Positions 2,766-31,811 of a stretch of 34,053 nucleotides of DNA are shown in pieces. Both the position numbers and the translations under genes were made by a program. The notes below the pieces were generated by a model, which was given only the letters and a program-made list of their open reading frames with translations, was not told the origin of the DNA and ran no database searches. Source of the DNA: a virus; IMG/VR virus record IMGVR_UViG_3300017767_000054, positions 1 through 34,053 of that record; one strand, 5' to 3'. The number at the start of each line of letters is the position of its first letter. The first letter of the stretch is position 1.

Positions 2766-2994
2766 AGCAGTTGAGGAACTTATAAAAGTAGCAAAAGAAG
2801 CTATAGTTGACTCAGGAGATGATATAACTGCTGATAGACTTAAAAACGCGGCAGCAACAAAAAAGCTGGCTATATTTGATGCTTTTGAAATACTGACTAG
2901 AATACAAGAGGAAGAAGATATACTTAACAATAAACCTAAAAAAGAAGATGAAACAAAATCTTTTGGTGGTTTTGCAGAAAGAAGATCTAAGTAA
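2719..2994 (+). CDS. Probable terminase small subunit
   Basis: A 91 aa, mostly helical protein (residues 6-28 KKSIIQAGHKAVEELIKVA, residues 40-66 RLKNAAATKKLAIFDAFEIL, then an acidic-basic tail). Its stop overlaps the TerL start (TAATG), the usual place for the DNA-recognition subunit of the packaging motor. Size and helical content fit small TerS proteins, and I see no other TerS candidate in the window. No clear helix-turn-helix can be pointed to, so the call rests mainly on position, size and general resemblance. It begins inside the end of the GroES-like gene. Confidence 0.6.
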   Translation: MNIKETKKSIIQAGHKAVEELIKVAKEAIVDSGDDITADRLKNAAATKKLAIFDAFEILTRIQEEEDILNNKPKKEDETKSFGGFAERRSK

Positions 2995-5207: not shown

Positions 5208-5208
5208 T

Positions 5209-7638: not shown

Positions 7639-7666
7639 TTATTTATTAATTTTATAATATTATATT

Positions 7667-8824
7667 ATGTCAGAAGAACAAAAACAAGAAGTTCAAGAGG
7701 AAGCTGTAGAGCAAACTCAAGAAACTAAAGTTGAAGCCGTCTCAGAAGAGGTGGTTGATGATGTACCAAAAGCTGAGGCTTTAGAAGACGGTACGTTTAA
7801 ACTTGACTTATCAGCTAAACCAGCTGAACAAGAAGTCGAAGAAGAAAAACCAGAAGCTGTTGAAGAAATAAATAGCGAAATAGAAAAAGAAACACCTATT
7901 GTTGAAGAGATAACAGAAGAAGAAGTTGTCGAGCAAGCTGAGGAAGTTCAAGAGGAAGTTGAAGAAGCGATAGCTGAAGCTAAACAAACAGGTGAGCCTT
8001 TACCAGAAAACATACAAAAAGTTGTAGACTTTATGAACGATACTGGTGGGAGCTTAGAAGACTATGTAAAGCTAAATCAAGATTTTAGTAATTACGATGA
8101 TAAAGCTTTATTAAAAGAATATTACAAACAAACCAAACCTCACTTAGAAGAAGACGAAATAAACTTTTTAATGGAAGATAATTTTTCATTTGATGAAGAA
8201 GTCGACGAAGAAAGAGATGTTAGGAGAAAAAAATTAGCGCTAAAAGAGCAGGTTGCAAGTGCTAAAGACCACTTAGACGGTTTAAAGTCTAAATATTATG
8301 AAGAGATCAAAGCTGGTAGTAAGCTACTCCCTGAGCAGCAGAAAGCAGTTGAGTTCTTTAATAGATACAACAAGGAGTCTGAGGATAATCAGAAACTACA
8401 AGATCACTATAAAAATGTGTTTCAACAAAAAACAGGTAATGTTTTTAACGATCAGTTCAAAGGTTTTGAATATAAGGTTGGGGAAAAGAAATATAGGTTT
8501 AACGTGAAAGATTCAGCTAAAGTCAAAGATACACAAAGCGATATCAATAATTTTGTCAAGAAGTTCTTGAATGAAAAAAATGAGATGTCAGATGCTGCGG
8601 GTTATCATAAAGGCTTATTTACGGCAATGAATCCAGATCTAGTAGCTCAACATTTTTACGAACAAGGTAAAGCTGATGCTGTAAAAAGCAGTGTTGCTAA
8701 AGCCAAAAACATTGATATGGATCCAAGGTCTACTCACGAGAAGGCACCAAGTCCAAATGGTTTTACAGTAAGAAGTGTTGACAACGAAACCGGAGACTTT
8801 AAGTTTAAAATAAAAACTAAATAA
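7667..8824 (+). CDS. Acidic scaffold-like capsid assembly protein
   Basis: A 385 aa protein between portal and major capsid genes, the classical scaffold position. Residues 1-110 are extremely acidic and low in complexity (repeated EE, VEE, EEV, QEE), probably disordered. Residues 115-260 are helical and charged. The C-terminus (about 355-385) has basic residues and could be the capsid-binding end (GDFKFKIKTK). Scaffold proteins guide capsid assembly inside the procapsid and then leave or are cut. No protease catalytic motif is visible here or in the neighbouring genes. An internal capsid protein that stays in the virion is the alternative. Confidence 0.7.
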   Translation: MSEEQKQEVQEEAVEQTQETKVEAVSEEVVDDVPKAEALEDGTFKLDLSAKPAEQEVEEEKPEAVEEINSEIEKETPIVEEITEEEVVEQAEEVQEEVEEAIAEAKQTGEPLPENIQKVVDFMNDTGGSLEDYVKLNQDFSNYDDKALLKEYYKQTKPHLEEDEINFLMEDNFSFDEEVDEERDVRRKKLALKEQVASAKDHLDGLKSKYYEEIKAGSKLLPEQQKAVEFFNRYNKESEDNQKLQDHYKNVFQQKTGNVFNDQFKGFEYKVGEKKYRFNVKDSAKVKDTQSDINNFVKKFLNEKNEMSDAAGYHKGLFTAMNPDLVAQHFYEQGKADAVKSSVAKAKNIDMDPRSTHEKAPSPNGFTVRSVDNETGDFKFKIKTK

Positions 8825-8848
8825 TTTAACATTTAAAATTTAAAGATT

Positions 8849-10306
8849 ATGCCTTTTAATTCATCAGGTGCTGCATTAGCGCACCTAACCCCGAGACCTG
8901 TAAAAGATTTATACGGGTCGAATTATCTGTCAATCACAGGTAATGATTACAACTTTACTAAACAATTCCTACCAGAAGTTTACGAAAAAGAAGTTGAAAG
9001 ATTTGGTAACAGAACTGTTGCTGGATTTTTGAAAATGGTAGGAGCTGAAATGCCTATGGCTTCTGACCGAGTAGTTTGGTCTGAGCAAGGTCGTATTCAC
9101 GTTGCTTTTAGTGACTGTTCTACAGATGCTAACGGTGGTGCTACAAATGAGTTAACTTTTTCATCAGCGGCTAACGCTTCTATGATTGAAATTCATGACA
9201 CTATCATCGTTAACAGCGGAGGAACTACAGTAAAATGTTACGTTTCAGCTAAGCCAAGTGCAACTACTGCTACTGTTATTCCTTACACTGCTGCTACTTT
9301 AGCCGCTGCTGGTATTGCGAATGACACTGCTAACTTAAACGTATTTGTATATGGTTCTGAGTATAAAAAAGGATCTAGTTTAGCTGGAAACTCTAAAGAT
9401 GCTGACTTTACTACTTTTAGTAATAAGCCAATTATCTTAAGAGACAAGTACAGTGTAAACGGTTCTGATACTGCTAGCATCGGCTGGGTAGAAGTAACTA
9501 CTGAGTCTGGAACTGGTGGATATCTATGGTACTTAAAATCAGAACACGAAGCACGTCTAAGATTTGAAGATCAATTAGAAATGGCGATGATTGAAGCTGA
9601 GCCAGTTTCTGGTAACCAAATGGATGGTGCTGGTGTTTTTGAAACCGCTGCTGTTGTAGGACAACACGGAACTCAAGGTTTATTCTCTGCTATTGAAGAA
9701 AGAGGATTAATTTACAATAACCCTGATTTTGGTTCTGTTTCTGCAGGCGAAGGAATTGCTGAATTTGACGTTGTGTTACAAGAGCTTGATAAGCAAGGAG
9801 CTATCGAAGAAAATATGATGTTCTTAAATAGAGGAACGTCTTTAGCTATCGATAATATGCTAGCTGTTCAAAACTCTTATGGATCTGGAGGTACATCTTA
9901 CGGTGTATTTGACAATTCAGAAGACATGGCGCTTAACTTAGGATTCTCAGGATTCCGAAGAGGTTCTTACGATTTTTACAAGTCTGACTGGAAATACCTA
10001 AACGATGGTACTACAAGAGGATTAGTTGGTGATGTACAAGGAGTATTAGTTCCTGCTGGAACAAGTACTGTTTACGATCAGCAATTAGGTAAGAACATCA
10101 AAAGACCTTTCTTACATATCCGTTATAGAGCTTCTGAAGCTGATGACAGACGTATGAAGTCTTGGATCACTGGATCTGTTGGTGGTAACTACACTAGCGA
10201 CGAAGACGCAATGAACGTTCATTTCTTATCAGAAAGATGTTTATGTGTTCAAGCTGCTAACAACTTCATCTTGTTTAAAGATGCTGATGGTGTTACTGGT
10301 GACTAA
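8849..10306 (+). CDS. Major capsid protein
   Basis: A 485 aa protein placed portal-scaffold-MCP-terminator. The segment at residues about 45-75 (EKEVERFGNRTVAGFLKMVG, then AEMPMASD and VVWSEQGR) matches my recollection of major capsid proteins of crAss-like and related environmental phages; an HK97 fold is therefore inferred. Codon use differs sharply from its neighbours: all 21 Ile codons are ATT or ATC and none is ATA, as expected for the most heavily translated gene. A strong rho-independent terminator lies 20 bases after the stop. The start at 8849 follows the AT leader TTTAAAATTTAAAGATT. Confidence 0.87.
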   Translation: MPFNSSGAALAHLTPRPVKDLYGSNYLSITGNDYNFTKQFLPEVYEKEVERFGNRTVAGFLKMVGAEMPMASDRVVWSEQGRIHVAFSDCSTDANGGATNELTFSSAANASMIEIHDTIIVNSGGTTVKCYVSAKPSATTATVIPYTAATLAAAGIANDTANLNVFVYGSEYKKGSSLAGNSKDADFTTFSNKPIILRDKYSVNGSDTASIGWVEVTTESGTGGYLWYLKSEHEARLRFEDQLEMAMIEAEPVSGNQMDGAGVFETAAVVGQHGTQGLFSAIEERGLIYNNPDFGSVSAGEGIAEFDVVLQELDKQGAIEENMMFLNRGTSLAIDNMLAVQNSYGSGGTSYGVFDNSEDMALNLGFSGFRRGSYDFYKSDWKYLNDGTTRGLVGDVQGVLVPAGTSTVYDQQLGKNIKRPFLHIRYRASEADDRRMKSWITGSVGGNYTSDEDAMNVHFLSERCLCVQAANNFILFKDADGVTGD

Positions 10307-10325
10307 TCAATAACTAATGTAATTT

Positions 10326-10352
10326 TTACCCTCGTTATATCAACGGGGGTAA
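10326..10352 (+). terminator. Rho-independent terminator after the capsid gene
   Basis: Stem TTACCCTCGTT (10326-10336) pairs with AACGGGGGTAA (10342-10352): eleven base pairs including one G-U, a five-base loop ATATC, then the T-rich tract ATTATTACTTTTATT. It begins 20 bases after the MCP stop. Confidence 0.88.
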
Positions 10353-10381
10353 TTATTACTTTTATTAAATTATATTATATT

Positions 10382-11143
10382 ATGAAAAAGCAAGAAAAAG
10401 CTCCTACGGCTTGGGAGATTAAAGATAGAGTTTATTTATTAAAAGGTAACAAAACACCTTTATTATTTACAGTACCTGCAAAACACAGTAGAGCAAAAGC
10501 TTTATTATGGTTTGACGAAGAAAAAGGTATTCAAAGAGAGTTAAGATACGCTACTAACCAAAACTCACCATTTGTTGATGAGCAAAAAGGTCAAGTAACT
10601 TTAGGACATATATTTTTTAGAGATGGCAAGTTAATGGTGCCAAAGCAAAAACAAAATTTACAAAAACTGTTATCGCTTTATCACCCTATGAAAAACAGAC
10701 AATTTTTTGAAAAAGATGATCAAATGGACGCTGAAGTTGATTTGAACTACTTAGAAACAGAAATTGAAGCTTTAAAAATAGCGTCTACACTAGATATAGA
10801 CGATGCAGAAGCTATATTAAGAGTTGAAACTGGAACCAACGTATCTTCATTAACTAGTAAAGAAATAAAAAGAGACATAATAGTTTTTGCTAGAAACAAC
10901 CCAGCGCAATTTTTAGAGCTAATGCAAGATGAAGATATTCATTTAAAAAACATAGCTATGAAAGCTGTTAAGTTAAAAGTTATAAAAATGTCACCAGATG
11001 GCAGAGCTTTTCTCTGGGAAAAAAATAGTAAAAAAATAATGGGTGTACCGTTTGATCAAGATCCATACCCAGCAATAGCTGATTGGTTTAAGACAGACGA
11101 AGGAATGGAAGTTCTAGATAGTATACAAAAGAAAATGAAATAG
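10382..11143 (+). CDS. Unrecognised 253 aa protein isolated between two terminators
   Basis: The protein has a beta-rich N-terminal part (residues 14-85, VYLLKGNKTPLLFTV, ALLWFDEEKG, HIFFRDGKLMVP). A charged helical middle follows (100-200, EVDLNYLETEIEALKIA, DDAEAILRVETG, FARNNPAQFLELM). The C-terminal segment contains GRAFLWEKNSKKIMGVPFDQDPYPAIADWF. No catalytic signature, signal peptide or membrane span is seen. It sits between the major capsid gene and the connector genes and is flanked by a terminator on each side, so its mRNA level is probably set separately from the capsid gene. Ile is mainly ATA here, unlike in the MCP gene. A capsid accessory or assembly role is plausible only by position. 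Confidence 0.7.
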   Translation: MKKQEKAPTAWEIKDRVYLLKGNKTPLLFTVPAKHSRAKALLWFDEEKGIQRELRYATNQNSPFVDEQKGQVTLGHIFFRDGKLMVPKQKQNLQKLLSLYHPMKNRQFFEKDDQMDAEVDLNYLETEIEALKIASTLDIDDAEAILRVETGTNVSSLTSKEIKRDIIVFARNNPAQFLELMQDEDIHLKNIAMKAVKLKVIKMSPDGRAFLWEKNSKKIMGVPFDQDPYPAIADWFKTDEGMEVLDSIQKKMK

Positions 11144-11156
11144 ATTACCTATAGTA

Positions 11157-11185
11157 GTTAGGCTACTTTTAACGGTAGCCTAATT
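11157..11185 (+). terminator. Probable rho-independent terminator
   Basis: Perfect nine-base arms TTAGGCTAC (11158-11166) and GTAGCCTAA (11175-11183) with an eight-base loop, extendable by one wobble pair at each end, 14 bases after the preceding stop. The following tract TTATTATAAATAAAA is A/T-rich but not a pure T run, so it could act in both directions only weakly. Confidence 0.75.
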
Positions 11186-11205
11186 ATTATAAATAAAAAA
11201 AAATT

Positions 11206-11937
11206 ATGGCAGTAAGCATAGATACAGTATATCAAAGAGTTTTAGCTATAGCTAATAAAGAACAAAGAGGTTATATAACGCCTCAAGAGTTTAACTTGTT
11301 GGCTAACCAAGCACAAATGGATTTGTTTGAGCAATACTTTTATGATTTAAATCAAGCTTTAAAAGCACCACCGAGTAATGATACTACTCATGGAGATCTT
11401 GTTGACATCATACAAGAAAAAATTGATTTTTTTGAAAAGTATAGAGCTGCATTAGCTATGTCTGACGGAGGAGTTGGAACTCTTCCTGATTACTACAGAA
11501 TGGGTGAGGTATACACAGACAAGTGTGGTGAGTTTGTTGAAATTGAAAAAATAAATCAAAATGAAATACACCATATACTTAAATCACCTCTAACAGCACC
11601 ATCAATATCACTGCCAGTTTATGTAAGAAACTCAGGAACTAGCAATGCATCAAGGCAAAGACTTATACAGATATACCCTACAACAATTGGTTCTTCTGAT
11701 ACAGTTGTTTGTAACTATATAGCTAAACCAACTCAAGTAGTTTGGGGATATACTGTTGTAAACAGCCAAGCCTTGTATAATTCATCGTCAACTACTGATT
11801 TTGAATTACATGAGTCAGAGGAGGTTAACTTAGTGTTTAAAATATTAGCCTTAGCTGGTATTGTAATAAAAGACCCTCAAATGTATCAAATAGCAAACAC
11901 AGAGACACAAAACGATATTCAAGAAGAAAAACTATAA
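11206..11937 (+). CDS. Head-tail connector/adaptor-like structural protein
   Basis: A 243 aa protein, first of the series of tail-assembly genes after the capsid block. Residues 1-80 are helical (VYQRVLAIANKEQRG, FNLLANQAQMDLFEQYF), as in adaptor proteins such as P22 gp4 and T7 gp11, which have an N-terminal helical bundle contacting the portal. Residues 90-180 are beta-rich with IYPTTIGSSDTVVCNYIAKP, and the C-terminus is helical. It is followed three bases later by another connector-type gene. The adaptor role rests on order and secondary-structure pattern; no motif settles it. Confidence 0.6.
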   Translation: MAVSIDTVYQRVLAIANKEQRGYITPQEFNLLANQAQMDLFEQYFYDLNQALKAPPSNDTTHGDLVDIIQEKIDFFEKYRAALAMSDGGVGTLPDYYRMGEVYTDKCGEFVEIEKINQNEIHHILKSPLTAPSISLPVYVRNSGTSNASRQRLIQIYPTTIGSSDTVVCNYIAKPTQVVWGYTVVNSQALYNSSSTTDFELHESEEVNLVFKILALAGIVIKDPQMYQIANTETQNDIQEEKL

Positions 11938-11940
11938 AAT

Positions 11941-13032
11941 ATGCCTTTATTTACAGGAACACAACAGCAATACTATAACAATAGCCAGTCTTTTACTGGT
12001 ATTGGTTCTGCAACTGCTTTTACTTTAACTTTTTCTCCGTTACCAACAAGTGTAAACAATTTTAAAGTTTACTTTGATGGCTCAGAAGTAAACACAAGTT
12101 TATACGATGGAACACCTTACAATAGTACCTCAGGTGTATTAACGTTTGACACGGCTCCAGCTAATGGCGTTATTATATTAGTTCAACAATTTAACTTTGA
12201 CGAACAGCTAGGTAACTATCAGTTTATAGGGTTAAGTGATATAATAAATAACTTTTTAATATCATATGTTGGTGAAGAAAAAATAATAACTAAAATTAGA
12301 AGAGCAGATGTTGCTTTTCACGCACAGAGAGGTATTCAAGAGCTTAGTTATGATACTTTTAAATGTACTAAAGCTCAAGAAATAGAAATACCTCCTTCTT
12401 TAACAATGAAACTACCTCACGACTACGTGAACTATGTTAAGTTAGTATGGTCAGATAGCTCTGGAGTAGAGCGAGTTATATATCCTAGTGGTAAAACTAG
12501 TAATCCTACAGCGGTTTTACAGTCAGGAACTTATGATTATTTATTTGATCAAGATGGTAGTATGCTTACAGCTCAAGATTCAGATTCTTGGATAAAATAT
12601 AGATCTACATCTCAATCACCATCATCAGATCCAAGCGCTAGTCTTTACGATTACTTAACTGACGCTGGTAGAAGATATGGTATAAACCCAGAAACAGCTC
12701 AAGCAAATGGTATATTCTATATTGATTCAGGAAAAGGGTTAATACATTTTAGCTCTGATTTAAACGGTAAAACTGTTACACTTAAGTATATAAGTGATAG
12801 TTTAGGTACTGACGCAGAAATGATAGTACATAAATTTGCTGAAGAAGCTATGTATAAATACATGGCACATGCTATTTTGTCTACAAGATCAAACGTTCAA
12901 GAATACATAATAAATAGATTTAAAAGAGAAAAGTTCAACGCTATAAGAACAGCTAAAATAAGATTATCTAATTTAAAATCTGAAGAGCTTACTCAAATAA
13001 TGAGAGGTAAATCTAAGCAAATAAAACACTAA
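11941..13032 (+). CDS. Connector/ring protein with fibre-type N-terminal domain
   Basis: A 363 aa protein that appears composite. Residues 12-95 (TGIGSATAFTLTFSPLP, VYFDGSEV, GVLTFDTAPANGVIILVQ) resemble the small beta-domain found at the N-terminus of T7 gp17-type tail fibres, which attaches fibres to the tail. Residues 105-363 look like a tail-ring or adaptor protein: helical ITKIRRADVAFHAQRGIQEL, then KLPHDYVNYVKLVWSDSSGVERVIYP, then a C-terminal helical region ending in basic residues. A possible reading is a ring protein that both closes the head-tail joint and carries a fibre-docking domain. It is four bases from the upstream gene and from the nozzle gene below. Confidence 0.6.
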   Translation: MPLFTGTQQQYYNNSQSFTGIGSATAFTLTFSPLPTSVNNFKVYFDGSEVNTSLYDGTPYNSTSGVLTFDTAPANGVIILVQQFNFDEQLGNYQFIGLSDIINNFLISYVGEEKIITKIRRADVAFHAQRGIQELSYDTFKCTKAQEIEIPPSLTMKLPHDYVNYVKLVWSDSSGVERVIYPSGKTSNPTAVLQSGTYDYLFDQDGSMLTAQDSDSWIKYRSTSQSPSSDPSASLYDYLTDAGRRYGINPETAQANGIFYIDSGKGLIHFSSDLNGKTVTLKYISDSLGTDAEMIVHKFAEEAMYKYMAHAILSTRSNVQEYIINRFKREKFNAIRTAKIRLSNLKSEELTQIMRGKSKQIKH

Positions 13033-19872: not shown

Positions 19873-20496
19873 ATGCCAATACCACCAGCGTTAATCGTAG
19901 GAGGCGTTAAAGCTCTTAGCAGTATAGCCGGGGGTATAATCGGCTCCAAGAAAAGAAAAGCAGAGCAAAGAAGAGCTCAAGCAAACTACGACAAGCAATT
20001 ACAAAGATTAGAGGGCATGGACACATCAAATCCATACGCTAATCAAGAAAATGTATACGAAGATCTTACTGTAAATACACAGGAGGCGGATATGCTTGCA
20101 CAGCAGCAACAACAGTCCTTAGCCAACACAATGGGTAGTTTACAAGGTGCTGCTGGAGGATCTGGTATAGCTGCTTTAGCTCAATCAATGGCTAATCAAC
20201 AATCACAAAACCTGCAACAAGCCACAGCTAGTATAGGCCAACAGGAGTCACAAAACCAAATGATGCAAGCTAGACAAGAAGGTGTTATGCAAGAAAATAT
20301 GGCTAAAGGAGATATGATGTCTAGACAGATGGAAGCTAGTAAAGTAACAGGAATGCTAGGTAGAGCAGGTCAAAGACTAAGCGCAGCAAACCAAGCTAGA
20401 CAAGCCGCTACAAATAGCATAATGGGTGGAGCAGGTGAGCTAGCTGGTATGGGTGCTAGTTTCTTACCAGGAGGCGGCATGAACAGAAATAGCTAA
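19873..20496 (+). CDS. Probable internal virion (DNA ejection) protein, small
   Basis: A 207 aa protein. Residues 4-26 form an Ala/Gly-rich hydrophobic helix (ALIVGGVKALSSIAGGIIGS) followed at once by a basic cluster KKRKAEQRR. Residues 75-180 are Gln/Ala/Met-rich and helical, and the C-terminus is again Gly/Ala-rich (GGAGELAGMGASFLPGGG). Glycine-zipper hydrophobic ends on a Gln-rich helical body are typical of ejection proteins such as T7 gp14 and P22 gp7, which leave the capsid and insert in the host envelope. It is the first gene of the ejection block with the 396 aa and 2946 aa proteins. Confidence 0.68.
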   Translation: MPIPPALIVGGVKALSSIAGGIIGSKKRKAEQRRAQANYDKQLQRLEGMDTSNPYANQENVYEDLTVNTQEADMLAQQQQQSLANTMGSLQGAAGGSGIAALAQSMANQQSQNLQQATASIGQQESQNQMMQARQEGVMQENMAKGDMMSRQMEASKVTGMLGRAGQRLSAANQARQAATNSIMGGAGELAGMGASFLPGGGMNRNS

Positions 20497-20513: not shown

Positions 20514-21704
20514 ATGAGAATTCCAGATTATTCAGGCGGAGATGTTCCTATAGGTGCAGGTTCAGAGCAAAGCGAAGCAGCTAATATATCTAATCAAGCT
20601 AAGATGTTTCAAGATAACCTAGATAAGGTTTTACTTAGAAAAAGACAAGCTGATATGGAAAAGGCTCGTGCTAACGCAAAAATATCTTCGTACTTAAACC
20701 AAATGCCTGACGGTGTAGATACATCTAAAGTACCACCTAGCGACAAACCACAGTTAACTTCTTGGTTAAAAAACAAACACATAGAGTTTGGTAATTATGC
20801 AAAAGACGCTGCCTACGGTGAATCACAAGGAGACTTTGATTTAGTTATTCAAAGTAAAGCTAAAATGGCTGAAATAGAAAGCGCTTTTCAAAACCTAAAT
20901 GGTCAACTAGATAATTTTAAAAACTATAAAGATAATTTTTTAAAAGATGCTGAAGACGGTTTAATAAGTAATGCTGTTAATCCTTCTAAAAGATCTTTAT
21001 TAGCTTCTGTTTATACTGACGAAATGCAAATGAGTTTTAATAATGACGGTAGCGTTATGTTTACAAACGACGAAGGTTATTTAAGCTTTAATGATATACC
21101 TGATTATATAGTTAAAAACAACACTGGTGCCACTAAAGTTCTTGACATGAATGAAAAAATATATAATTCTGGTCAAAAAATGAGTGATGATAATGTTAGG
21201 TTAACAAGAATGAAACTTCAAAATATAACTAAATCTAGAGATGAGGTTTTATCCTTAGCTACTGATGATTTTATTAACGAAGGTGGTTTAGGTATATTAG
21301 ATGAAGATTTACTTTACAACCCAGAAAGAACAGATGAACTTAGAAATAAGGTTATAGATAGTTACATGAATATGTTTAATGATAGCGCAGATGCTGGTTT
21401 TAAAAACTCTAAACTAAAAAGTAAAAAAAAGGAAGAAGAAGATGATGAAGAATATTACACGCCAGAAGTTAATGCCTTTCTAACAGAAGAACTTCCAAAC
21501 ATGGCCACAAACACTCCAGAAGAAGTTATGTCTACTTGGGAGCAGAGCGGTGTTTTAGGTAAAAATAAAATAATATCAGACGGGGCTGGTGGTTACTATC
21601 TTAGAAATCTATATGGAACTAAAAGAGTTATAAGCCTAGGTACAACACCTCAAAATGATCATGCTAAGTTTTTAGCTATATTAAAAAGAAACGGAATTAA
21701 ATAA
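20514..21704 (+). CDS. Probable internal virion/ejection protein, medium
   Basis: A 396 aa, highly charged and mainly helical protein. Residues 1-25 are Gly/Pro-rich (MRIPDYSGGDVPIGAGSEQ). Helical segments cover about 25-150. A lysine-then-acidic low-complexity linker at about residues 300-317 (KLKSKKKEEEDDEEYY) divides off the C-terminal domain. No enzyme motif or signal peptide. Its position between the gp14-like gene and the giant protein gene matches the middle ejection protein of the three-gene sets in podoviruses (T7 gp14-15-16). This assignment rests on order and composition only. Confidence 0.6.
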   Translation: MRIPDYSGGDVPIGAGSEQSEAANISNQAKMFQDNLDKVLLRKRQADMEKARANAKISSYLNQMPDGVDTSKVPPSDKPQLTSWLKNKHIEFGNYAKDAAYGESQGDFDLVIQSKAKMAEIESAFQNLNGQLDNFKNYKDNFLKDAEDGLISNAVNPSKRSLLASVYTDEMQMSFNNDGSVMFTNDEGYLSFNDIPDYIVKNNTGATKVLDMNEKIYNSGQKMSDDNVRLTRMKLQNITKSRDEVLSLATDDFINEGGLGILDEDLLYNPERTDELRNKVIDSYMNMFNDSADAGFKNSKLKSKKKEEEDDEEYYTPEVNAFLTEELPNMATNTPEEVMSTWEQSGVLGKNKIISDGAGGYYLRNLYGTKRVISLGTTPQNDHAKFLAILKRNGIK

Positions 21705-21711: not shown

Positions 21712-24700
21712 ATGTCTTACACAACTAAAAGTGGTATAAACATAGAAAGCGAAGAAGAATTGCTAGCTAGAGCATCTAACCTTGGTTTAACACCTGAAGA
21801 ATTTAAAGTTCAATATATTTCAGGTGGTGATAAAGAAAAGCAAGATGCAGATTTTCAAACAGGTTCTCAGGAAAACGGTGCACCTGCGGACCCAAATGCA
21901 GCACCACCAAAAGATACGGAATCGAGCTCGGGTCCTGGTTTTTTGGATATACTAAAAAGTAGTCTTAAAGCAACAGTAGGCCTAAGTGGAGCCTTAATGA
22001 ATCCTAAGCTACAATCTGAAACAGAGTCTTACAAGGTTAGAGAAGAAAAAAGAAAATCTGATCCTTTATGGATTAGCGCTAACTCAGATGTTAAAGATCA
22101 ACTGGCTCAGTGGATTTCTAATGATGATCACATATTAAATGTGATAGGTGATACTGACATAAACTGGGAGCATATAAATAACAAATCAGAAGGAAGCGCG
22201 GATTTTAATAAAAAAATATCCAAAGCAGCTAAATCACAATTAAGCCCAGAGGTTTATAGCGTTCTACAAGAAAAAGATGTTGATCACATAATAAGAGATG
22301 TCTTTAAAGCTAAAGCCAATATACATTCAACAAAAAGATTAAACGCAGAAGCTGCAGAATATGAATCTATAATATTAGATAAAGGTTTAACTGATGAGGC
22401 CGTAGAACAACTACAACGTAAAAAGCTTTATGATAACATGTCTACTTTAAGGCAAAATGTAGTTGACGCAAACGATAAGTTGCGTGAGATGAAAGAAGAA
22501 GGAGCTACTACTGCGGAACTAGTTAAACAATCAAGAGAGGTTGAAAAACAGTTGCAAATATTAGAAGACTCTCCTGAAGAGTTTTCTGTATTTTTTGGAC
22601 TTGGTGGCAACACTTATAATCAACTAGTTTCTTGGGATGGTGCTGTAATAGGAACAGAGCTGAAAGGTGATATTGATTCTGACTCTAGCTTTGATATATC
22701 ACAAGAAGAAGTAGAAGATATAAAAGCTAAGATAGCTAACGGTGAAATAAAAGAAACAACTTATGATGATTACATAGGTAATTTATTTAATAAAAATGGT
22801 AGAGATTTATTTTATCACCAAGAAAAAGGTAAAGAAACAAACAATGTAACAATAAACGATCCTACAGCTTGGAGACTACTTAAAAAACTAGGCTACAAAG
22901 CTATTGGTAAAAACAATAATGGTTTTGAGTTTAACGTAAGTAATAATGATTTAGGTAAACACTATAAAACTATTGTTGAAGGTGATGGTGGTGGCGCAAG
23001 TTATGATGAAGATAATATGTTTGCTGATGATTACGAGTTCTTTGGTTACAATGAAAACGATAGTGTTGGTAGAATTTTTTCAGGTATATCTGCTCCTCAA
23101 GGTTTCTTTGGTTTAACAGATAAAAACGAAGAACAAGAATTTGGTTTCTTTGAGCAGTTTTTAAGAGATGAAGACGAGTTTGGCGACAATGATAAGTCTA
23201 GAAACTTTAAGCTAATGCTTAGAGATTTTAGAGATGAAAAAAAGCAAATAATAGCTGAAAGAGGTATTTTAGCAGATATGCACATGTTAAACGTTAATGT
23301 TGCTACAAAAAAAGAAGGACCTTTACAAAAAACAGGCGACTTTTTTGCTAGACAAGCAGAGCTTGTAACAGAAGGTTTTGGTATGGAAGGAGAGCAGTGG
23401 CTTGGTACTGATGCTGTTAATGTAAACTGGAGCAATAGAAAAGAAAAAGACGTACTTCAGTCTATACATGATCAATACGGTGGTGTTGTTAAGACTGAGG
23501 AAATGAAAGAGGAAATAAGAAGATCTGGTGCTTATGAAGTTGCTGAAGGTGTTTCTGGTTTTGTACCTGCTTTAGTAGAGTTTGCATTAATAGATGTAGC
23601 TGCTAAGAAAGTAGGTGTTATAACTGGTATACCTAAGTTAGCTAAAAGTGCTTATAAAGTTTTTAGGGGTGCTGGAGCAAGTGTTAAAACCGGTAGATCT
23701 ATAGCTAATATAACTAATTTTACTGGCCACGCGCTTTACGAAGAAGCTAAAATGAGAGTAGCTTTTGACGAGCATTACCACATGGGTGGTGGTGTTGGTT
23801 TTTATTCTGTTGGTAGAATCCTAAATGGTATAAAGTTTGCTAGTAAATCACCTTTGTTAAACACAGCTGTTAATATACACGGTAAAGGTGGTTTAGCTGG
23901 TATGGTTTCTGTACCTACTGCGGCTAACTTAGAAGCAGCTATAAGAGATTTGCGAGGTAACGAAAGCTACATGACATACATAGATGATACTTATTTTGAC
24001 GAAAACAATGAGTTTAATTTAGGTAAGCACGTTAAAGGTGGTTTAGTAGACTTTTTTGTTTTTTCTTCTCTTGGATTAAAAGGTTTTGCAACAAAAGAAG
24101 GTAGATTAAACTATAGACCAATAAGAGGTAAAAAAATAGGCAACGTAACTTGGTGGAAGGGCTTAGAAACGTTAGAAGTAGAATCTTCTAAAGTAATGAC
24201 TAGAGTTGAAAACGAAGCAGAGCTTCTTGGTAGTCAACTTGAAAATAAAAGAAAAAAAGTTTTTAATATTGATGGTAAAAAGTACACTAGATCACAAGCT
24301 GAAGCTAGAATGAAAGATTTGCAAAAAGAATATATAAAATATTCAGATTTACACGCTAGCGTTAACAGTAGATTAAACACTATACTAGAACACAATGATT
24401 GGCAAGATGACGTTAAAGCTACTAAAAAAGTTAAAAAATCTTTTGAAGCAATAAGTTATTTATTTCCTGATTTAAAACTAACAGCAAGTAAAAAGGTTCC
24501 TGATTGGGTTTCTGCTGTAAAAGATCCTTTAAGCCCTGAGGTTCCTGCGGCTAGATACGATAAGAAGTTTGGTATATATATTAACACGGCTAAAGCGGGC
24601 CCAGGAAAACTACCTCACGAAATAGTGCATGTTGTAATGGAAAAAGCCTTTGCGCAAAACCCAGCGCTAGCAAGAAAAATGAGAGCTGTATTAGAAGATG

Positions 24701-27700
24701 TTTTTGATGTTGAAAAGTTTTATATAAATGACGGTAGTGGTCGTGAAGCTAGAATGACTCTTTCTGATTTTATAGAGTTAAATTATAAAGGTAAAGATTT
24801 AAAAGCTCACGAGTATGTTGCTTATGCTGCTGAGCTATTAGCTAATCCAAGAAATTATAGCAACTTGGTTAACAAAGGTGTTTTTACAAACGCAGAAACA
24901 AAGTTGAAAGATTTTGCAACTAAAATGGGTATCAAAGATTTTGATATAAGCAAAAAAGATCAATTAATAAGATTTCTTTACAACTTTGCGGAAAGTGTTA
25001 AAGACGGTACATTAAACAAAAACCAAATAGCTAAGTTTAAAAACATGGAAAAGCAAGGTTTGTTTTCTGAACCAAACAAATACGATGCGAGATTACCTGA
25101 GACTAAGGCAAATATGGAGGTGGACGCTGCTTTTAGTTCTATGGATTTAAAACAAAGATCAGCTGATACTCAAAAAAAGTTTGAAGACTTAAAAGAGGAA
25201 AACAAAGATATAGATGTTGTTGTTGATAAAATGATAAAACCTAAAGCAGGTAATAAAACATCTGTAGCTGGCGAGTACTTTGACAATATAATTTATAACA
25301 CAATAGATAGATATAATGCAGGTAGAATAAGATTAGGTCAAAACGAACAGCAGATTTTAGATCCTACAGATAGATATATGTTAGCAACAGAACTTGTTTA
25401 CAATTTAAACGCTAAAGAAGGTAATAAATCTAGAGGATTAAAACAAATAATAAAAGACTACGAAAACAGAGATTTATTCAAAGACAAAGATGGTAAGTTC
25501 GCTATGTGGGATAAGTATGGCGATAAAAAAATAGATGAATTAAAACTTGAAGAGTTGCAAGAAAAATATGGAGCTCAAGTTGGTAGTAAAGAATTTAAAG
25601 ATCAAGCTATAGCTGAAGGATTTAAAGCAAAACAAAACCTTACAAAAACTGTAATGCAAACTTTACAGTTAAGAATATATGAACTAAAAGGCGGTAGCTT
25701 GGACAAGGGCAAAACAGATCAAGAGCTGTTTCAAACAGTAAGTTATGATGCTAGTCCTGAGTTAAAAGCAGCTGTTGAGAATCAGTCAGGAACAGGTTAT
25801 ACAGACTTTAGACTACCATCTGAAAAGAAAACAAAAGAAACAATAACTTTAGACGGTAAGAAATATAATTACCCTATAAGAGTTTCTGAAGTTTATGATT
25901 TAAACACTGAAAAATATTCTCCAAAAGTACCAGATGTTATAGAAAATTTATCTATTGAAAAACTGACATACGAAAACATAGCTAAGTCTATGCAAAAAGA
26001 GTTGTCTATAGATATTCAAGAAAGTATAGGGTTAAATCCTAGCATGAAGCCTAAAGAATATGTTAGCGTTGCTGAAAAATGGTTAGAAACAAATGAACAA
26101 ATTGCTTTTGAAGGACTAGAAAGAACATCTAACCCAGATATGTACGAGCCAACAAATATAAATAAAAGTATATTTAAAAGCTTGTTTACAAAAACAAACA
26201 CAAAGTTTAAAACAAGTGAGCTACCTGACTTTTTAGCAAAAGAAACAAACGCTAGAACATTTAAGTGGAAGAAAAACTCTTATAAAAAAGGAGAGTTAAA
26301 ATCTATATTAATGAAAGGTAGAGACGCTGGTGTAGTTAAAAAGAATTTTTTAGAGTATTTTAACAGAAACGCTAAGGTTGCTAGTAGCCAAGTTGTTAGA
26401 GATAAAATTAGTTCACCTAACGTTCAAGATTTAATAAAATCTAAAAACTTAAATAAATTTCATAATTTAAAAGCCGATCAAGTATTGCCTTATGTTAAAG
26501 AAGCAATAAGAGGAGCTACACCTGATGCTTTTAACTCAATGGAGATGAAAACTTGGGATAAGTTTATAGGTTCTTGGAAAAAGTTTAATCACGCTAAATC
26601 TAGCGGTGTTATTGATGCTTATAAATCTATTTCAAGCAACATGACCGAAAAAGAACAAGCTGTTATAGACGCTTATAAAAATATATTTTTTAGTGAAAAC
26701 GGTTACAACGTAGGTCAAAACGCTATAAAAGAACTACAAGCTTCAGCTCAAGCATTAAGAAACTTAGAGCAGATAAAAGTAGGAGTTGTTAATCCTAAGG
26801 TATGGAATAGATTTAAAGGTATAAACTCAGAGATAATAACTATGTTATCTAAAGAAAACATAAGTAAATCTGATCTAGAAAGATTAACAATAAACCAAAC
26901 AATACCTAGTAGAGTTAAAAATAATAAAAAATACTTTGAGTTTGTTAATGATTTAATGGACACAATGGACCCAAGTTTAAAACCTTTGATGCAAAAAAGT
27001 TACGGTGACGGTAGCTATAAGTTTAATGGTAAAGACTACAAAACTGTTGCTGATAAATTTACTAGCACTGGTAAATCTGAAAACTTACCTTTTAATATAG
27101 ATCATGTTAAAACAGTCAACAATGCTACTTTTAAGAAAAAGTATATGGAAGAGCTAGCTAAAACAAAAGGTTTAAAAGACAACCCTACAGCTAGACAGGC
27201 ATTTTTCAAAAGAATAGTTGAAACTTATTTAGTTCCTAAAATAACTAAAAAAAGAATTAAAGAGTTAGGTAAAGAATTAAAAGAAGGAAAAATATCTAAA
27301 AAAGCCTACGATGAAGCTATTAAACCTGTTACAATAGATCAGGTTATAAAAGCAAATGAAGGTTTGCAGAAATATATGTATGGTAAAATTTTTGATTTTT
27401 ACAGTAAATCTAAAGATAAAATTAATGCTATTAATCAAATACAATTTTTCTTACAGCTACAAACAAGTATAGATACTGGTTTTTCAAGAGCTTTAGCAAC
27501 GCATACGGCCCTTACTTTAGATAAAGGTAAAATGTACAGTGAGCATCAATTTCAGGTAATGAACTTTAACGGTAATTTTTTAATGAACATGTTAAAAAAC
27601 TCTGGTTCAAAAGCTGAGTTTTTGAAAAACTTTGATCCGCTTGCTAAGCAATTTAAACAAAGTATAATACCTAAAGAATTACAATTATTAATAGATAGTC

Positions 27701-30552
27701 CTGAACACGGTGGTAATACAGGTAGTGTTTATTTAAAAGGCTACAACTCAGATTTACCATCAGAAGCAAACTACTTATACATGTACAAGCTAGGTAATAT
27801 TGTAGATGTAAGGACAGGTAAAACTTATAAAGAAATAATTGAAGCTCAAGTTAACGCTAGTCAAACTTTAAATGAAATAAATAAAATTAAAGAAAATTTA
27901 TTAAAAGATACACCTACTAATACTTTTGATTCAAAAGATATGACCGCTCCTGAAATAGCTGAAAAGCTAATGATGATTGATAAAGCTTTTGGCCTTGCAA
28001 GAAAAAGAAATAAGAAAAGAAAAGGTATTAGCGTGTTTGATTTTGATGATACACTTGCTAGAACAAATAGCAAGATAGGTGTAACAATGCCAGACGGTAG
28101 TAAAAAGAAAATAGATGCAACTGAGTTTGCTTTAAAATCTGCAGAACTAGAAAGCCAAGGCGCTAAGTTTGACTTTAGTGAGTTTAATAAAGTTGTTGAT
28201 GGCAAAAAAGGACCGTTAGCTGATCTTGCTTTAAAAAGACAAGGTAAGTTTGGTAATGAAGATATATTTATATTAACAGCTAGACCGCAAGAGTCTGCCC
28301 CAGCTATAAAAGCTTTTATGAAAGAGTTAGGTTTAGAAATACCTTTAGAAAATATAACAGGTTTAGCTGACGGTAGACCAAGTGCAAAAGCTTTGTGGGT
28401 TCTTGATAAAGCATCTAAAGGTTACAACGATTTTTATTTTGCAGATGACGCTTATAAAAATGTAAAAGCAGTTCAAGACGTTTTAAACGTTATAGATGTT
28501 AAATCAAAAGTACAACAAGCTTTTAATTCTATGGATCTAAATGCAGATATCAATGGCATGATAGAGAGAGTCACAGGTATAGGTAAAGACAAAAAATACT
28601 CTGAATTTAAAGCAAAATTAGTAGGTGGCAAATCAGGTAAAACAAAAATTATAGCCTCTTCTGCTCAAGACTTTGAGGGATTAATGTATAGACTTCTTGG
28701 TAAAGGCGAGCAAGGTAATAAAGATAAAAAATGGCTTCAAGATAATTTACAAAAACCTTTTAATAGAGCTAATAACGCTATATCATCTGATAGAATATCT
28801 ACTTTAAATGATTTCAAAAAAATTAAAAGTAATCTACAAAAAGCTGGTATACCTAAAAATCTAAGAAAAACAATATCTGGAGAACCTTTTTCTATAGAAC
28901 AATCAGTAAGAGTGTACACTTGGACTAAACAGGGTATGGAAATACCAGGTTTGTCTAAAGCAGATTTAAAAACAATGGTTGACTATGTAGAATCTAAACC
29001 TGCATTAATGAAGTTTAGCAATGAGCTTATAGACTTAGGAAAAGGTGATGGTTATCAGAAACCTGGACAAAGTTGGGAGGCTGGAACAATAACAACTGAT
29101 CTACTTAAAAGCTTAAACGAAGGCAGGAGATCTAAATATTTAGAACAAAGTGGTTGGACTGATGCTGTAGATATAATTTTTTCAAAAGAAAACTTAAACA
29201 AAATGGAAGCTGGTTTAGGCACTAAGTGGAGAGAGGCTATGGAAAACAGTTTAAGAAGAATGAAAACAGGAAGAAATAGATCTACCTCTAGTCAAGAAAG
29301 TAAGTTAGAGAACATGGCTTTAGACTGGTTAAATAACTCTGTTGGATCAATAATGTTTTTAAATACTAAGTCAGCTGTTCTACAAACAATATCAGCGGTT
29401 AACTATATAAACTGGAGCGACAATAACCCTTTAAAAGCTGGAGCTGCTATAGCTAATTTTAAAAACTACGGTAAACATTTTGCTGAAATATTCAACTCAG
29501 ACTTTATGATAGAAAGACGTGGCGGTTTAAAAATAAATGTAAATGAAAATGAGATAGCTGAAGCAGCAAAACAAAATGGACCAAAAGGCGTTATAGCAAT
29601 GATACTTAAAAAAGGTTTTGTTTTAACTCAGTTTGCTGATAGTTTTGCTATTGCTGCTGGTGGATCTAGTTTTTACATAAACAGAACAAAAACATACGAA
29701 AAACAAGGCATGAGCAGTGTTGAAGCTAAGAAAAAAGCGTTTGAAGACTTTAGAGAGTTAACAGAGCAAAGCCAACAATCTAGTAGAGCTGATAGAATAT
29801 CCATGCAGCAGGCGTCTGCTTTAGGTAGAGTTGTTTTAGCTTTTGCCAACACACCTTCTCAGTATGCTAGGTTAATGCAAAAAGCGGCTAGTGATATTAA
29901 AAATGGACGAGGAGACTTTAAAACAAACATGTCTAAGATATTATATTATGGCTTTGTTCAAAACTTAATATTTAACGCACTACAAACAGCTTTGTTTAGA
30001 GATGCTTTTGACGAAGAAGAAGGTATACAGTCTGACACTAGCTTTATGGCTAATGGTATGATTTCATCATTATTAAGAGGTATGGGTTGGCAAGGCGCCG
30101 CGATAGATACAGCTAAAAACATTGTAATGGATGTTGTGGCTCAAAGTAAAAAAGATAGACCAAAATATGGCGATTCTGCTTTAAAACTATTAGATATTTC
30201 TCCTCCTTTAGATTCAAAAATTTCTAAATTAAGATCAGCTGGTAAAGCTTTTGAGTATGACATGAAAGAAATAAAATCATCTGGATGGAGTTTAGATAAT
30301 CCTGCTTACTTAGCTGGTGGTAAAATATTATCAGCAACAGCAAATATTCCACTAGATAGATTATTTATAAAGTACAACAATATAGATGCTGCTCTTGCTG
30401 AAGATACAGAAGACTGGCAAAGTGTTGCGTTGGCTTTAGGTTGGTCTGAGTGGCAGTTGGGTATGAATGAAAAAGGCCAGACGGCTGAGGAATTTGTAAG
30501 AGAAATATTCAAAAGAGAAACTTTTAAAAGAGAAACCTTTAAACGAGATTAA
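21712..30552 (+). CDS. Giant multidomain virion protein with metallopeptidase and HAD domains
   Basis: A 2946 aa protein, the largest gene here and third of the ejection block. Residues 600-790 include several hydrophobic, Gly-rich stretches (GVSGFVPALVEFALIDVAA; GLVDFFVFSSLGL). A zinc-peptidase motif HEIVH lies at H969-H973, with a plausible third ligand E1041 in YAAELLAN. Residues about 2105-2260 form a complete HAD-type hydrolase: FDFDDT (D2110, D2112), ILTARP (T2189), SAKALW (K2226) and FADDAYKN (D2245-D2246). Hydrophobic segments recur at 2538-2570, 2625-2660 and 2740-2762. This resembles the polyvalent proteins packed in capsids and injected with DNA. No phage virion RNA-polymerase signature was noticed. 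The tail ends in a basic FKRET repeat. Roles of the enzymes are inferred. Confidence 0.8.
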   Translation: MSYTTKSGINIESEEELLARASNLGLTPEEFKVQYISGGDKEKQDADFQTGSQENGAPADPNAAPPKDTESSSGPGFLDILKSSLKATVGLSGALMNPKLQSETESYKVREEKRKSDPLWISANSDVKDQLAQWISNDDHILNVIGDTDINWEHINNKSEGSADFNKKISKAAKSQLSPEVYSVLQEKDVDHIIRDVFKAKANIHSTKRLNAEAAEYESIILDKGLTDEAVEQLQRKKLYDNMSTLRQNVVDANDKLREMKEEGATTAELVKQSREVEKQLQILEDSPEEFSVFFGLGGNTYNQLVSWDGAVIGTELKGDIDSDSSFDISQEEVEDIKAKIANGEIKETTYDDYIGNLFNKNGRDLFYHQEKGKETNNVTINDPTAWRLLKKLGYKAIGKNNNGFEFNVSNNDLGKHYKTIVEGDGGGASYDEDNMFADDYEFFGYNENDSVGRIFSGISAPQGFFGLTDKNEEQEFGFFEQFLRDEDEFGDNDKSRNFKLMLRDFRDEKKQIIAERGILADMHMLNVNVATKKEGPLQKTGDFFARQAELVTEGFGMEGEQWLGTDAVNVNWSNRKEKDVLQSIHDQYGGVVKTEEMKEEIRRSGAYEVAEGVSGFVPALVEFALIDVAAKKVGVITGIPKLAKSAYKVFRGAGASVKTGRSIANITNFTGHALYEEAKMRVAFDEHYHMGGGVGFYSVGRILNGIKFASKSPLLNTAVNIHGKGGLAGMVSVPTAANLEAAIRDLRGNESYMTYIDDTYFDENNEFNLGKHVKGGLVDFFVFSSLGLKGFATKEGRLNYRPIRGKKIGNVTWWKGLETLEVESSKVMTRVENEAELLGSQLENKRKKVFNIDGKKYTRSQAEARMKDLQKEYIKYSDLHASVNSRLNTILEHNDWQDDVKATKKVKKSFEAISYLFPDLKLTASKKVPDWVSAVKDPLSPEVPAARYDKKFGIYINTAKAGPGKLPHEIVHVVMEKAFAQNPALARKMRAVLEDVFDVEKFYINDGSGREARMTLSDFIELNYKGKDLKAHEYVAYAAELLANPRNYSNLVNKGVFTNAETKLKDFATKMGIKDFDISKKDQLIRFLYNFAESVKDGTLNKNQIAKFKNMEKQGLFSEPNKYDARLPETKANMEVDAAFSSMDLKQRSADTQKKFEDLKEENKDIDVVVDKMIKPKAGNKTSVAGEYFDNIIYNTIDRYNAGRIRLGQNEQQILDPTDRYMLATELVYNLNAKEGNKSRGLKQIIKDYENRDLFKDKDGKFAMWDKYGDKKIDELKLEELQEKYGAQVGSKEFKDQAIAEGFKAKQNLTKTVMQTLQLRIYELKGGSLDKGKTDQELFQTVSYDASPELKAAVENQSGTGYTDFRLPSEKKTKETITLDGKKYNYPIRVSEVYDLNTEKYSPKVPDVIENLSIEKLTYENIAKSMQKELSIDIQESIGLNPSMKPKEYVSVAEKWLETNEQIAFEGLERTSNPDMYEPTNINKSIFKSLFTKTNTKFKTSELPDFLAKETNARTFKWKKNSYKKGELKSILMKGRDAGVVKKNFLEYFNRNAKVASSQVVRDKISSPNVQDLIKSKNLNKFHNLKADQVLPYVKEAIRGATPDAFNSMEMKTWDKFIGSWKKFNHAKSSGVIDAYKSISSNMTEKEQAVIDAYKNIFFSENGYNVGQNAIKELQASAQALRNLEQIKVGVVNPKVWNRFKGINSEIITMLSKENISKSDLERLTINQTIPSRVKNNKKYFEFVNDLMDTMDPSLKPLMQKSYGDGSYKFNGKDYKTVADKFTSTGKSENLPFNIDHVKTVNNATFKKKYMEELAKTKGLKDNPTARQAFFKRIVETYLVPKITKKRIKELGKELKEGKISKKAYDEAIKPVTIDQVIKANEGLQKYMYGKIFDFYSKSKDKINAINQIQFFLQLQTSIDTGFSRALATHTALTLDKGKMYSEHQFQVMNFNGNFLMNMLKNSGSKAEFLKNFDPLAKQFKQSIIPKELQLLIDSPEHGGNTGSVYLKGYNSDLPSEANYLYMYKLGNIVDVRTGKTYKEIIEAQVNASQTLNEINKIKENLLKDTPTNTFDSKDMTAPEIAEKLMMIDKAFGLARKRNKKRKGISVFDFDDTLARTNSKIGVTMPDGSKKKIDATEFALKSAELESQGAKFDFSEFNKVVDGKKGPLADLALKRQGKFGNEDIFILTARPQESAPAIKAFMKELGLEIPLENITGLADGRPSAKALWVLDKASKGYNDFYFADDAYKNVKAVQDVLNVIDVKSKVQQAFNSMDLNADINGMIERVTGIGKDKKYSEFKAKLVGGKSGKTKIIASSAQDFEGLMYRLLGKGEQGNKDKKWLQDNLQKPFNRANNAISSDRISTLNDFKKIKSNLQKAGIPKNLRKTISGEPFSIEQSVRVYTWTKQGMEIPGLSKADLKTMVDYVESKPALMKFSNELIDLGKGDGYQKPGQSWEAGTITTDLLKSLNEGRRSKYLEQSGWTDAVDIIFSKENLNKMEAGLGTKWREAMENSLRRMKTGRNRSTSSQESKLENMALDWLNNSVGSIMFLNTKSAVLQTISAVNYINWSDNNPLKAGAAIANFKNYGKHFAEIFNSDFMIERRGGLKINVNENEIAEAAKQNGPKGVIAMILKKGFVLTQFADSFAIAAGGSSFYINRTKTYEKQGMSSVEAKKKAFEDFRELTEQSQQSSRADRISMQQASALGRVVLAFANTPSQYARLMQKAASDIKNGRGDFKTNMSKILYYGFVQNLIFNALQTALFRDAFDEEEGIQSDTSFMANGMISSLLRGMGWQGAAIDTAKNIVMDVVAQSKKDRPKYGDSALKLLDISPPLDSKISKLRSAGKAFEYDMKEIKSSGWSLDNPAYLAGGKILSATANIPLDRLFIKYNNIDAALAEDTEDWQSVALALGWSEWQLGMNEKGQTAEEFVREIFKRETFKRETFKRD
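30508..30549 (+). repeat. 15-base tandem repeat at the C-terminus of the giant protein
   Basis: Nearly three copies encode F-K-R-E-T (residues 2933-2946, ending FKRD). Copies differ by C/T in the Phe and Thr codons and by AGA/CGA in the third Arg codon. It looks like a slippage-type expansion giving a basic, amphipathic tail just before the stop. Confidence 0.8.
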
Positions 30553-30584: not shown

Positions 30585-31811
30585 ATGAAGAATATACTAA
30601 TTACTATTTTAACACTACTGACGTTTACTATAAACGGACAAGAAAAAGAAAAAGGTAAATTTTTTAAAACAATATACCAAGACTTTCTCAAGTACGGTAC
30701 AGTGTATGCTGCCGGTGATGTTCGTAATGCTTATGAAAACTCTAGAAAAGATTTCTTTGTAGAAAGACCAGCTGATGGTGATCTATATGCAATACCTAGG
30801 GTTGTAGAGGTTACAGAGTATTTTGATTTTGATTATAGAATAGGTGTTGGTATACGTAAACTAGGTAGATTTGGTTATGAAAGAAAACCTGGTAATTTCT
30901 GGACAGGTAATGCTTACAGAGAAAATCAACAAGCATTGTCATCACCTACATCTGCTGTAGATGGTTTTGAGTATTTGTTTCATTTTGAAAAAGAAAGATT
31001 ACGTGGTGAAGAGTTTACTAATTTTAGATATTTTTTAAGACATACAGGTAAATACCATATAGCTAAAGTAGAAGCTAGGGATCAAGGTACTTTTGATTTT
31101 TCTTATAAATCAGCAGAGCTTAGAGCTAGATTACCTATAGGTAAAAAGTTTAGTGTATCTGCAGGTGTTATATATCGTACACATGAAAGAGCTTATGGAT
31201 ATAATCCTATAGAAATATGGTTAAATGAAACTGAAACGTTTACAACAACTGATGGTGAAGTTATAGAATATCCTACTAATCCATGGTATGCTTTAGGTTT
31301 TGAATATGGTTATGACGATATATATTATACTTCAGAAGATGAAAATGGAAACGAAACGTCTGATTGGTATTGGGTAGATCCTGATGGTAACACGGTAGCG
31401 TATACTGATTTACAGTTTCGTAATACAGTATTTAGAGATCTTATTAATAGGTACAACAACGAGCAGTGGGATATGATTGGTGAGTTTGGTTTGTTATCAC
31501 CTATAATCGGTGCAGATTTTTATCATTATAAAAATAACTTCTGGCTTCATGCTTACGGTAATTATTTACCTGGTTATCACAAATACGTCTCTGGTGATTT
31601 AGATTTTTCATATTTAAACAGAAACAATTGGGGTAAAGGTGGATTAGTTCAAGATGCAGAGCCTCAACAGTGGACTGATTATCAAGTTGGATTAAACTTT
31701 GGGTGGAAAATTGGAAAACACTTAGGTGTTTTTATAGAAGGAGAATATAATAAAATGTGGGACACAAAGTTCTACAACTCAACATTTGGAATAAACTATA
31801 CATTTAGATAG
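30585..31811 (+). CDS. Exported outer-membrane beta-barrel-like protein
   Basis: A 408 aa protein. It starts with a signal peptide (MKNILITILTLLTFTING) and a likely mature N-terminus QEKEKG. The rest has long alternating polar/hydrophobic aromatic strands (FRYFLRHTGKYHIAKVEARD, AELRARLPIGKKFSVSAGVI) linked by acidic loops such as residues 220-270. It ends in VFIEGEYNK ... STFGINYTFR, a final strand of the outer-membrane-barrel type. Such proteins are placed in the host outer membrane. It has its own 32-base AT leader after the ejection block and heads the envelope/lysis cassette. It could alter receptors (superinfection exclusion), aid release, or be an acquired host gene. The barrel call is from sequence pattern; role unknown. 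Confidence 0.68.
   Translation: MKNILITILTLLTFTINGQEKEKGKFFKTIYQDFLKYGTVYAAGDVRNAYENSRKDFFVERPADGDLYAIPRVVEVTEYFDFDYRIGVGIRKLGRFGYERKPGNFWTGNAYRENQQALSSPTSAVDGFEYLFHFEKERLRGEEFTNFRYFLRHTGKYHIAKVEARDQGTFDFSYKSAELRARLPIGKKFSVSAGVIYRTHERAYGYNPIEIWLNETETFTTTDGEVIEYPTNPWYALGFEYGYDDIYYTSEDENGNETSDWYWVDPDGNTVAYTDLQFRNTVFRDLINRYNNEQWDMIGEFGLLSPIIGADFYHYKNNFWLHAYGNYLPGYHKYVSGDLDFSYLNRNNWGKGGLVQDAEPQQWTDYQVGLNFGWKIGKHLGVFIEGEYNKMWDTKFYNSTFGINYTFR

Follow-up and report, generated by a model that had tools for sequence, protein, structure and literature searches.

The window analysed here is a 34,053-base stretch of viral DNA (IMGVR_UViG_3300017767_000054), and it raises the question of what one very large protein at the end of its structural gene block does for the phage. 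The initial annotation read this protein, claimed at 2946 aa, as part of the ejection block and as the carrier of two enzyme domains. The reading frame is real: it runs uninterrupted from the ATG at 21712 to the stop at 30552, a single frame of 2946 codons. Upstream lie, in order, the genes for TerL, portal, scaffold, major capsid protein and connectors, then two tail-type proteins (1437 and 709 aa), a 115-aa protein, the 207-aa and 396-aa genes, and the giant (Table 1). The window TerL shares 62% identity with a Manatee Spring record of an uncultured podovirus and 45% with Flavobacterium elemo phages, and the portal and capsid protein share 36–38% with Cellulophaga phages phi40:1/phi38:1 (Pervagoviridae). 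These identities to elemo and phi40:1/phi38:1 relate the window phage, a marine one, to the flavobacterial podoviruses, and its host would be a member of the Bacteroidota. Elsewhere in the window, an ORF at 879–1610 encodes a 243-aa protein with collagen-like Gly-X-Y repeats, probably a tail fibre. Directly 3' of the giant is a 408-aa protein (30585–31811) that by eye has a signal peptide and looks like a beta-barrel, without a match in a PHROGs search, and farther downstream is a 136-aa protein (32101–32511) that looks thioredoxin-like by eye.

Table 1. Features of the window around and within the giant protein (positions in window bases)
Feature	Position	Strand	Basis
terL, portal, scaffold, major capsid and connector genes (synteny anchors)	2994..13032	+	synteny
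207-aa ejection-block protein	19873..20496	+	phi40:1 gp099 homologue
396-aa ejection-block protein	20514..21704	+	same position as phi40:1 gp100
Giant ejection-type protein, 2946 aa	21712..30552	+	ORF and relatives
Only strongly hydrophobic stretch, aa 613-638, within helical region	23548..23625	+	hydropathy, model
Predicted zincin-like metallopeptidase domain, aa ~899-1114	24406..25053	+	fold match, invariant residues
HExxH zinc motif, HEIVH aa 969-973	24616..24630	+	conservation
E1034, probable third zinc ligand, invariant	24811..24813	+	conservation
Conserved E-H pair, aa 1944-1945, 5' of HAD	27541..27546	+	relatives
Predicted HAD phosphatase domain, Pnkp 3'-phosphatase type, aa ~2096-2265 (motif I 28039-28053)	27997..28506	+	motifs, fold, profile
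Conserved all-helical C-terminal scaffold, aa ~2275-2920	28534..30471	+	alignment, model

Gene order in the block is common to the window, phi40:1 and elemo: terL, portal, scaffold, MCP, connectors, a long tail protein, a ~200-aa gene, a ~400–550-aa gene and a giant. BLAST pairs most of the window genes running from TerL through the 207-aa gene with phi40:1 genes, in an unchanged order. The 207-aa gene matches its phi40:1 counterpart at E = 7e-4 (7e-8 with a family profile), and in 72 of 75 loci a homologue of it directly precedes the giant; for the 396-aa gene the link to phi40:1 gp100 (E = 0.046) is positional only. The giant is the third gene, after these two smaller ejection-type genes. 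In phi40:1, gp091–093, gp095 and gp097–gp101 carry the note 'annotation based on experimental MS/MS proteomics analysis', and gp101, the final gene of the block, occupies the position of the window giant. The proposed ejection block is therefore backed by synteny with an MS-characterised phage.

Like the window giant, gp101 of phi40:1/phi38:1 is the last gene of the structural block, and about 300 aa of it show homology to family members, but it is shorter (1691 aa) and has neither HExxH nor the DxDxT of a HAD domain; the virion MS record thus belongs to a relative without the enzymes. Directly, gp101 resembles other members of the family and not the window protein. One relative (L112, a stop-ended partial frame with one TAA within the match) matches both the window C-terminal region (E = 2e-60) and gp101 (E = 2e-11), and an iterated profile of the gp101 region that L112 matches reached 24 proteins, including gp101, elemo gp18 and 21 further giants. 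Elemo gp18, from a Flavobacterium phage of the genus Elemovirus, likewise holds the last block position (3694 aa) and has one HExxH, but lacks the HAD motif set and was not matched by the C-terminal profile. Packaging of the window's own protein thus rests on homology, through these relatives, and on place. Free-virion proteomics of phi38:1 has been reported (PMC13288928), and the giant is not among the methylated proteins named there. From these comparisons, we consider the window giant very probably a virion ejection protein. It might instead be a structural protein that is never ejected, such as a tail or head decoration, in which the enzyme folds have decayed; relatives are indeed annotated merely as 'structural protein'. 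We regard this as very unlikely, given the position of the giant directly after two small ejection-type genes, catalytic residues that are invariant amid divergence, and a C-terminal fold common to polyvalent-type phage proteins.

Whole-protein searches (phage tblastn, IMG/VR patterns from the single sequence, Pfam, PADLOC, NCBIfam) returned no match, and relatives were reached via TerL first and then by a C-terminal alignment search. Relatives occurred in 13 of 30 TerL-found records, many of the other records being short fragments, and the C-terminal search of IMG/VR gave at least 448 relatives among the 600 screened matches listed. Eighty loci were kept from the latter, and two (L143, L188) were dropped for want of an ORF of 1200 aa bearing the HAD motif; one alignment (A7) comprised 33 of the 78 loci and the window. 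Across 74 relatives the last ~850 aa (HAD and helical scaffold) are 46–79% identical to the window, and the first ~2000 aa are hypervariable. Homologues with the same domain order, proposed earlier as a check, were found, and the family pattern is a fixed C-terminal end with a rapidly changing front end, in many ocean viruses. Against cultured phages, profile/HMM searches with the window HAD and MID regions gave no significant match, and Tenacibaculum phage Gundel was the sole match of the C-terminal profile (E = 8e-12). The positional counterpart in the Manatee Spring podovirus (L100, MW202828.1) has 3859 aa, two HExxH motifs and no HAD motif, and is annotated 'reticulocyte binding/rhoptry protein'. 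Family giants were also seen within MAGs labelled Aliivibrio, Woesearchaeota, Alphaproteobacteria, Ilumatobacteraceae and Clostridiales (L201–L206, L210, L211, L218–L220), probably through binning errors.

The first of the two enzyme claims concerned a zinc peptidase. The window protein has a single HExxH, a motif that shuffling yields by chance at about 1–2% per protein. Exactly one HExxH or HExxxH is present in 69 of 73 complete giants, 829–1257 residues before the HAD motif, against 0–3% in shuffled single proteins from the first relative set; the motif is missing in the other 4, and all six MAG-contig giants examined have it. Profile iteration from the window peptidase region recovered 66 of 94 proteins with the motif inside every match, although the profile itself favours motif-bearing proteins and 28 of the 94 had no match to it. 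H969, E970, H973 and E1034 are the sole fully invariant positions, in 66 of 66 profile-matched proteins and in 58 of 58 rows of alignment A2 (57 loci and the window; matched proteins taken from genomes were left out), within a region that beyond the zinc site is about 15% identical. We read H969-E970-x-x-H973...E1034 as a gluzincin zinc site, in which E1034 is probably the third ligand. The AlphaFold model of the region (58 sequences) has a pLDDT of 70, mostly 72–92 up to residue 530, and a pTM of 0.54. Model residues 310–527 align with lethal factor structures over 142–163 residues at Z 5.7–6.7, where a Z of 6–7 is below the tool's safe level and unrelated long helices rank higher. A lethal-factor-type zincin fold is therefore moderately supported by the fold match alone and convincing together with the invariant residues. 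By Foldseek the region resembles an elemo structural protein (probability 1.00, E = 8e-3), and no viral match fell below E = 0.001. Residues and model agree on the peptidase, which we predict with high confidence to be active.

The second claim, a HAD phosphohydrolase, can be made more specific. The window motif set is complete (DFDDT at 2110–2114, ILTAR around 2189, K2226, DD at 2245–2246). All four motifs (DxDxT, T/S, K, DD) are invariant in 75 of 75 rows of alignment A3, in which motif I is partly preselected by the search pattern and motifs II–IV are not; the alignment holds 74 of the 78 loci and the window, with L181, L183 and L191 (long insert) and L198 (cut) left out. A model of the HAD and C-terminal regions (AlphaFold, 75 sequences) reached pLDDT 80 and pTM 0.76. 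Its HAD domain is closest to the T4 Pnkp 3'-phosphatase (Z 11.6, rmsd 2.4, 120 residues); structures matched were 5uj0 (Z 11.6), 4xru (11.3), 1ltq (10.8) and 2ia5 (9.8), the others among the matches listed scoring 7.5–9.3, and bacterial Pnkp1 is among the closest solved folds. The best profile match is PHROG 415, 'polynucleotide kinase' (E = 9.3e-6), followed by PHROG 1238 (E = 1.6e-4); the HAD profile had no match among PDB sequences. Modelling by segment thus returned both enzyme folds, and the HAD phosphohydrolase is refined to the polynucleotide-kinase 3'-phosphatase type. Neither of the two results named beforehand as overturning the initial annotation was obtained. Motifs and model together make a nucleic-acid 3'-phosphatase the likely identity of the domain.

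Variation at the HAD among relatives bears on this assignment. The C-terminal search patterns include the HAD motif, so that HAD presence among relatives found in this way is not a frequency; the TerL-found set (n = 13) is the fairer sample, with HAD motif I in 11 of 13 giants and the peptidase motif in 13 of 13. The two TerL-found giants missing the HAD are L110 and L112, and five MAG-contig giants (L212–L216) also miss it and keep HExxH. The peptidase is therefore near universal in the family and the HAD an optional, swappable module. The spacing from motif I to motif II is below 100 residues in 79 of 88 proteins and 101–125 in five, and four carry a long insert (L114, which ends after motif I, was counted as without HAD). 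In L181, L183 and L191 about 200 residues between motif I and the cap form an inserted P-loop kinase-type domain; that of L181 matches AAA_33 (E = 1e-16), Zeta_toxin (5e-11) and PHROG 505, 'polynucleotide kinase' (2.4e-12), and the other two are alike. The long insert of L109 is a different domain, ADP-ribosyltransferase-like by eye and without a Pfam match. By these domain matches, some relatives combine kinase-type and phosphatase domains into a Pnkp-like pair, and this adds weight to reading the HAD as a nucleic-acid enzyme.

Stand-alone HAD proteins of ~167–184 aa were observed on MAG and single-cell contigs of marine or lake Bacteroidota (L221–L227). They are 35–37% identical to the giant's HAD, and several lie amid bacterial-looking genes. 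On L222 (1602–3668), three adjoining ORFs, two ART-like by eye and one HAD, share the leader MIKLKDILKE or close forms of it; the HAD at L225:2436–2954 starts with the same leader, which none of 2135 other ORFs carries. These leaders resemble the capsid-targeting leaders of T4-like internal proteins, and if they do target the capsid, a second type of phage would also inject the HAD.

Elsewhere in the giant, hydrophobic regions had been proposed near both ends, but in a 19-residue Kyte-Doolittle scan only one stretch exceeds 1.2, about 600 residues from the N-terminus (Table 1); no C-terminal stretch qualifies, and the model shows helices throughout the C-terminal 650 aa. Foldseek searches of BFVD with the HAD and C-terminal model gave, beyond the four closest rows, phage proteins at E = 1e-12 to 5e-4, several of them named large polyvalent protein (LPD) or ART-PolyVal. 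In 82 of 88 proteins an E-H pair, often EEHxxPA, precedes the HAD by at most 420 residues, although single EH pairs can arise by chance. The surrounding region otherwise has little similarity, an EHxxP/Q profile matched 71 of 94 proteins, and the pair may mark a third site of catalysis or cleavage. Only 7 proteins were reached by a region profile of aa 1700–2090. When 66 N-terminal parts (23+23+20), from the window and 65 of 75 loci, were scanned against Pfam, there were 10 weak, isolated matches, the best to Spectrin (E = 0.00039) and one to LPD14 (E = 0.0018), and these named no effector repertoire.

A giant of this layout could also be a virion RNA polymerase of the N4 or crAss type. The N4 polymerase also has an HExxH domain and, after it, a large C-terminal domain made of helices (PMC12633501), and Iyer et al. 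tied its peptidase domain to the lethal factor structure (PMC5512222). Size and layout are similar, and the hypervariable dark stretch at aa 1115–1900 could hide a polymerase. The window protein nevertheless matched no phage RNA polymerase and no T7 gp16 among PDB sequences by phmmer (the only match was a small terminase, E = 0.25), nothing scored above cut-off in Pfam or NCBIfam, and PDB sequence profile searches gave nothing useful. DxDGD-like motifs turn up in 10 of 94 proteins, with no common position, and never in the window protein. On these sequence searches a virion polymerase is very unlikely, and the earlier remark that the protein resembles neither T7 gp16-type transglycosylases nor virion RNA polymerases held in the PDB phmmer, Pfam and NCBIfam searches. 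Like N4 gp50 and T7 gp16 the giant would be an ejection protein of exceptional size, and N4 gp50 shares the HExxH and the helical C-terminal domain, but the window protein differs from both in that no polymerase or transglycosylase signature was found.

Polyvalent proteins offer a further comparison. As set out in the main text of Iyer et al. 2017 (PMC5512222), these are large and multidomain, with an LF-like zincin MPTase and a variable front, features that the window protein and its family share; the MPTase has HExxH, in some cases HExxxH, with a glutamate on a later helix, and the HExxxH of some giants is the same variant. The window protein also shows the polyvalent-type trait of two enzyme domains (zincin and HAD) in one phage ORF, and its helical C-terminal part fold-matches proteins named for polyvalent domains, but it has no match to a polyvalent or LPD model in Pfam. 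The giant's HAD shares fold and four motifs with T4 Pnkp and PHROG 415, and some relatives add a P-loop kinase-type domain; it differs in being a module inside a virion-type giant, with the kinase-type domain inserted in the HAD and not fused in front. The words 'haloacid', 'phosphatase' and 'polynucleotide kinase' do not occur in the main text of PMC5512222, the open-access literature searched yielded no description of a phosphatase in ejection or polyvalent proteins, and the part of a jumbo-phage survey on phage PNK-HAD enzymes places them in RNA repair, not in virion giants. Polyvalent and ejection giants as a kind were thus already described in 2017, and on the strength of these sources we regard the Pnkp-type HAD within such a protein as new.

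Taken as a whole, we read the protein, with a probability of about 0.6, as a gp16-like, polyvalent-type ejection giant whose zincin and Pnkp-type HAD work in the host. The phage would be a podovirus-like one of marine flavobacteria, with Elemovirus and Pervagoviridae as relatives, and the giant would be its third and largest ejection protein, in which several enzymes are joined in the polyvalent manner. We infer that the giant is packed in the head with the two small partners encoded just upstream and exits together with the DNA or ahead of it, and that its conserved, helical last 650 aa have a role in packaging or ejection. The chain would pass the tail unfolded and then refold. The zincin may then cleave the giant itself and free its domains, or cut a host protein, and the HAD may remove 3'-phosphate ends from nucleic acid before phage gene expression; candidate substrates are host tRNA cut by defence RNases and nicked incoming DNA.

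Alternatively, the giant may be packaged with its enzymes serving assembly only, the zincin as a maturation protease on the giant or its neighbours in the capsid and the HAD as a structural or assembly-time domain. The near universality of the zincin in the family fits this account, and autoprocessing before packaging (P1 DdrB) is one option given in the main text of PMC5512222. It is nonetheless rather unlikely: the invariant HAD catalytic residues and the kinase-type domain inserted in three relatives both point to chemistry, and the HAD, absent from L110, L112 and L212–L216, is dispensable, unlike an assembly core. Activity of the HAD in the host after injection is, on balance, slightly favoured.

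Phage repair of defence-cut RNA, as by T4 Pnkp and RNA ligase, is known to depend on genes expressed after entry. A repair-type enzyme delivered in the particle would act before phage gene expression, and so earlier than this known post-entry repair. We propose, tentatively, that in abundant marine flavobacterial phages an end-healing Pnkp-type phosphatase, joined in some relatives by an inserted polynucleotide-kinase-type domain, is injected as part of the ejection protein and defuses RNA- or DNA-cutting defences before transcription, and that the insertion point in the HAD is a docking site for enzyme swaps. The family, with its at least 448 relatives, is a large natural set in which a fixed C-terminal part and a near-universal peptidase are combined with an optional HAD and an exchangeable insert.
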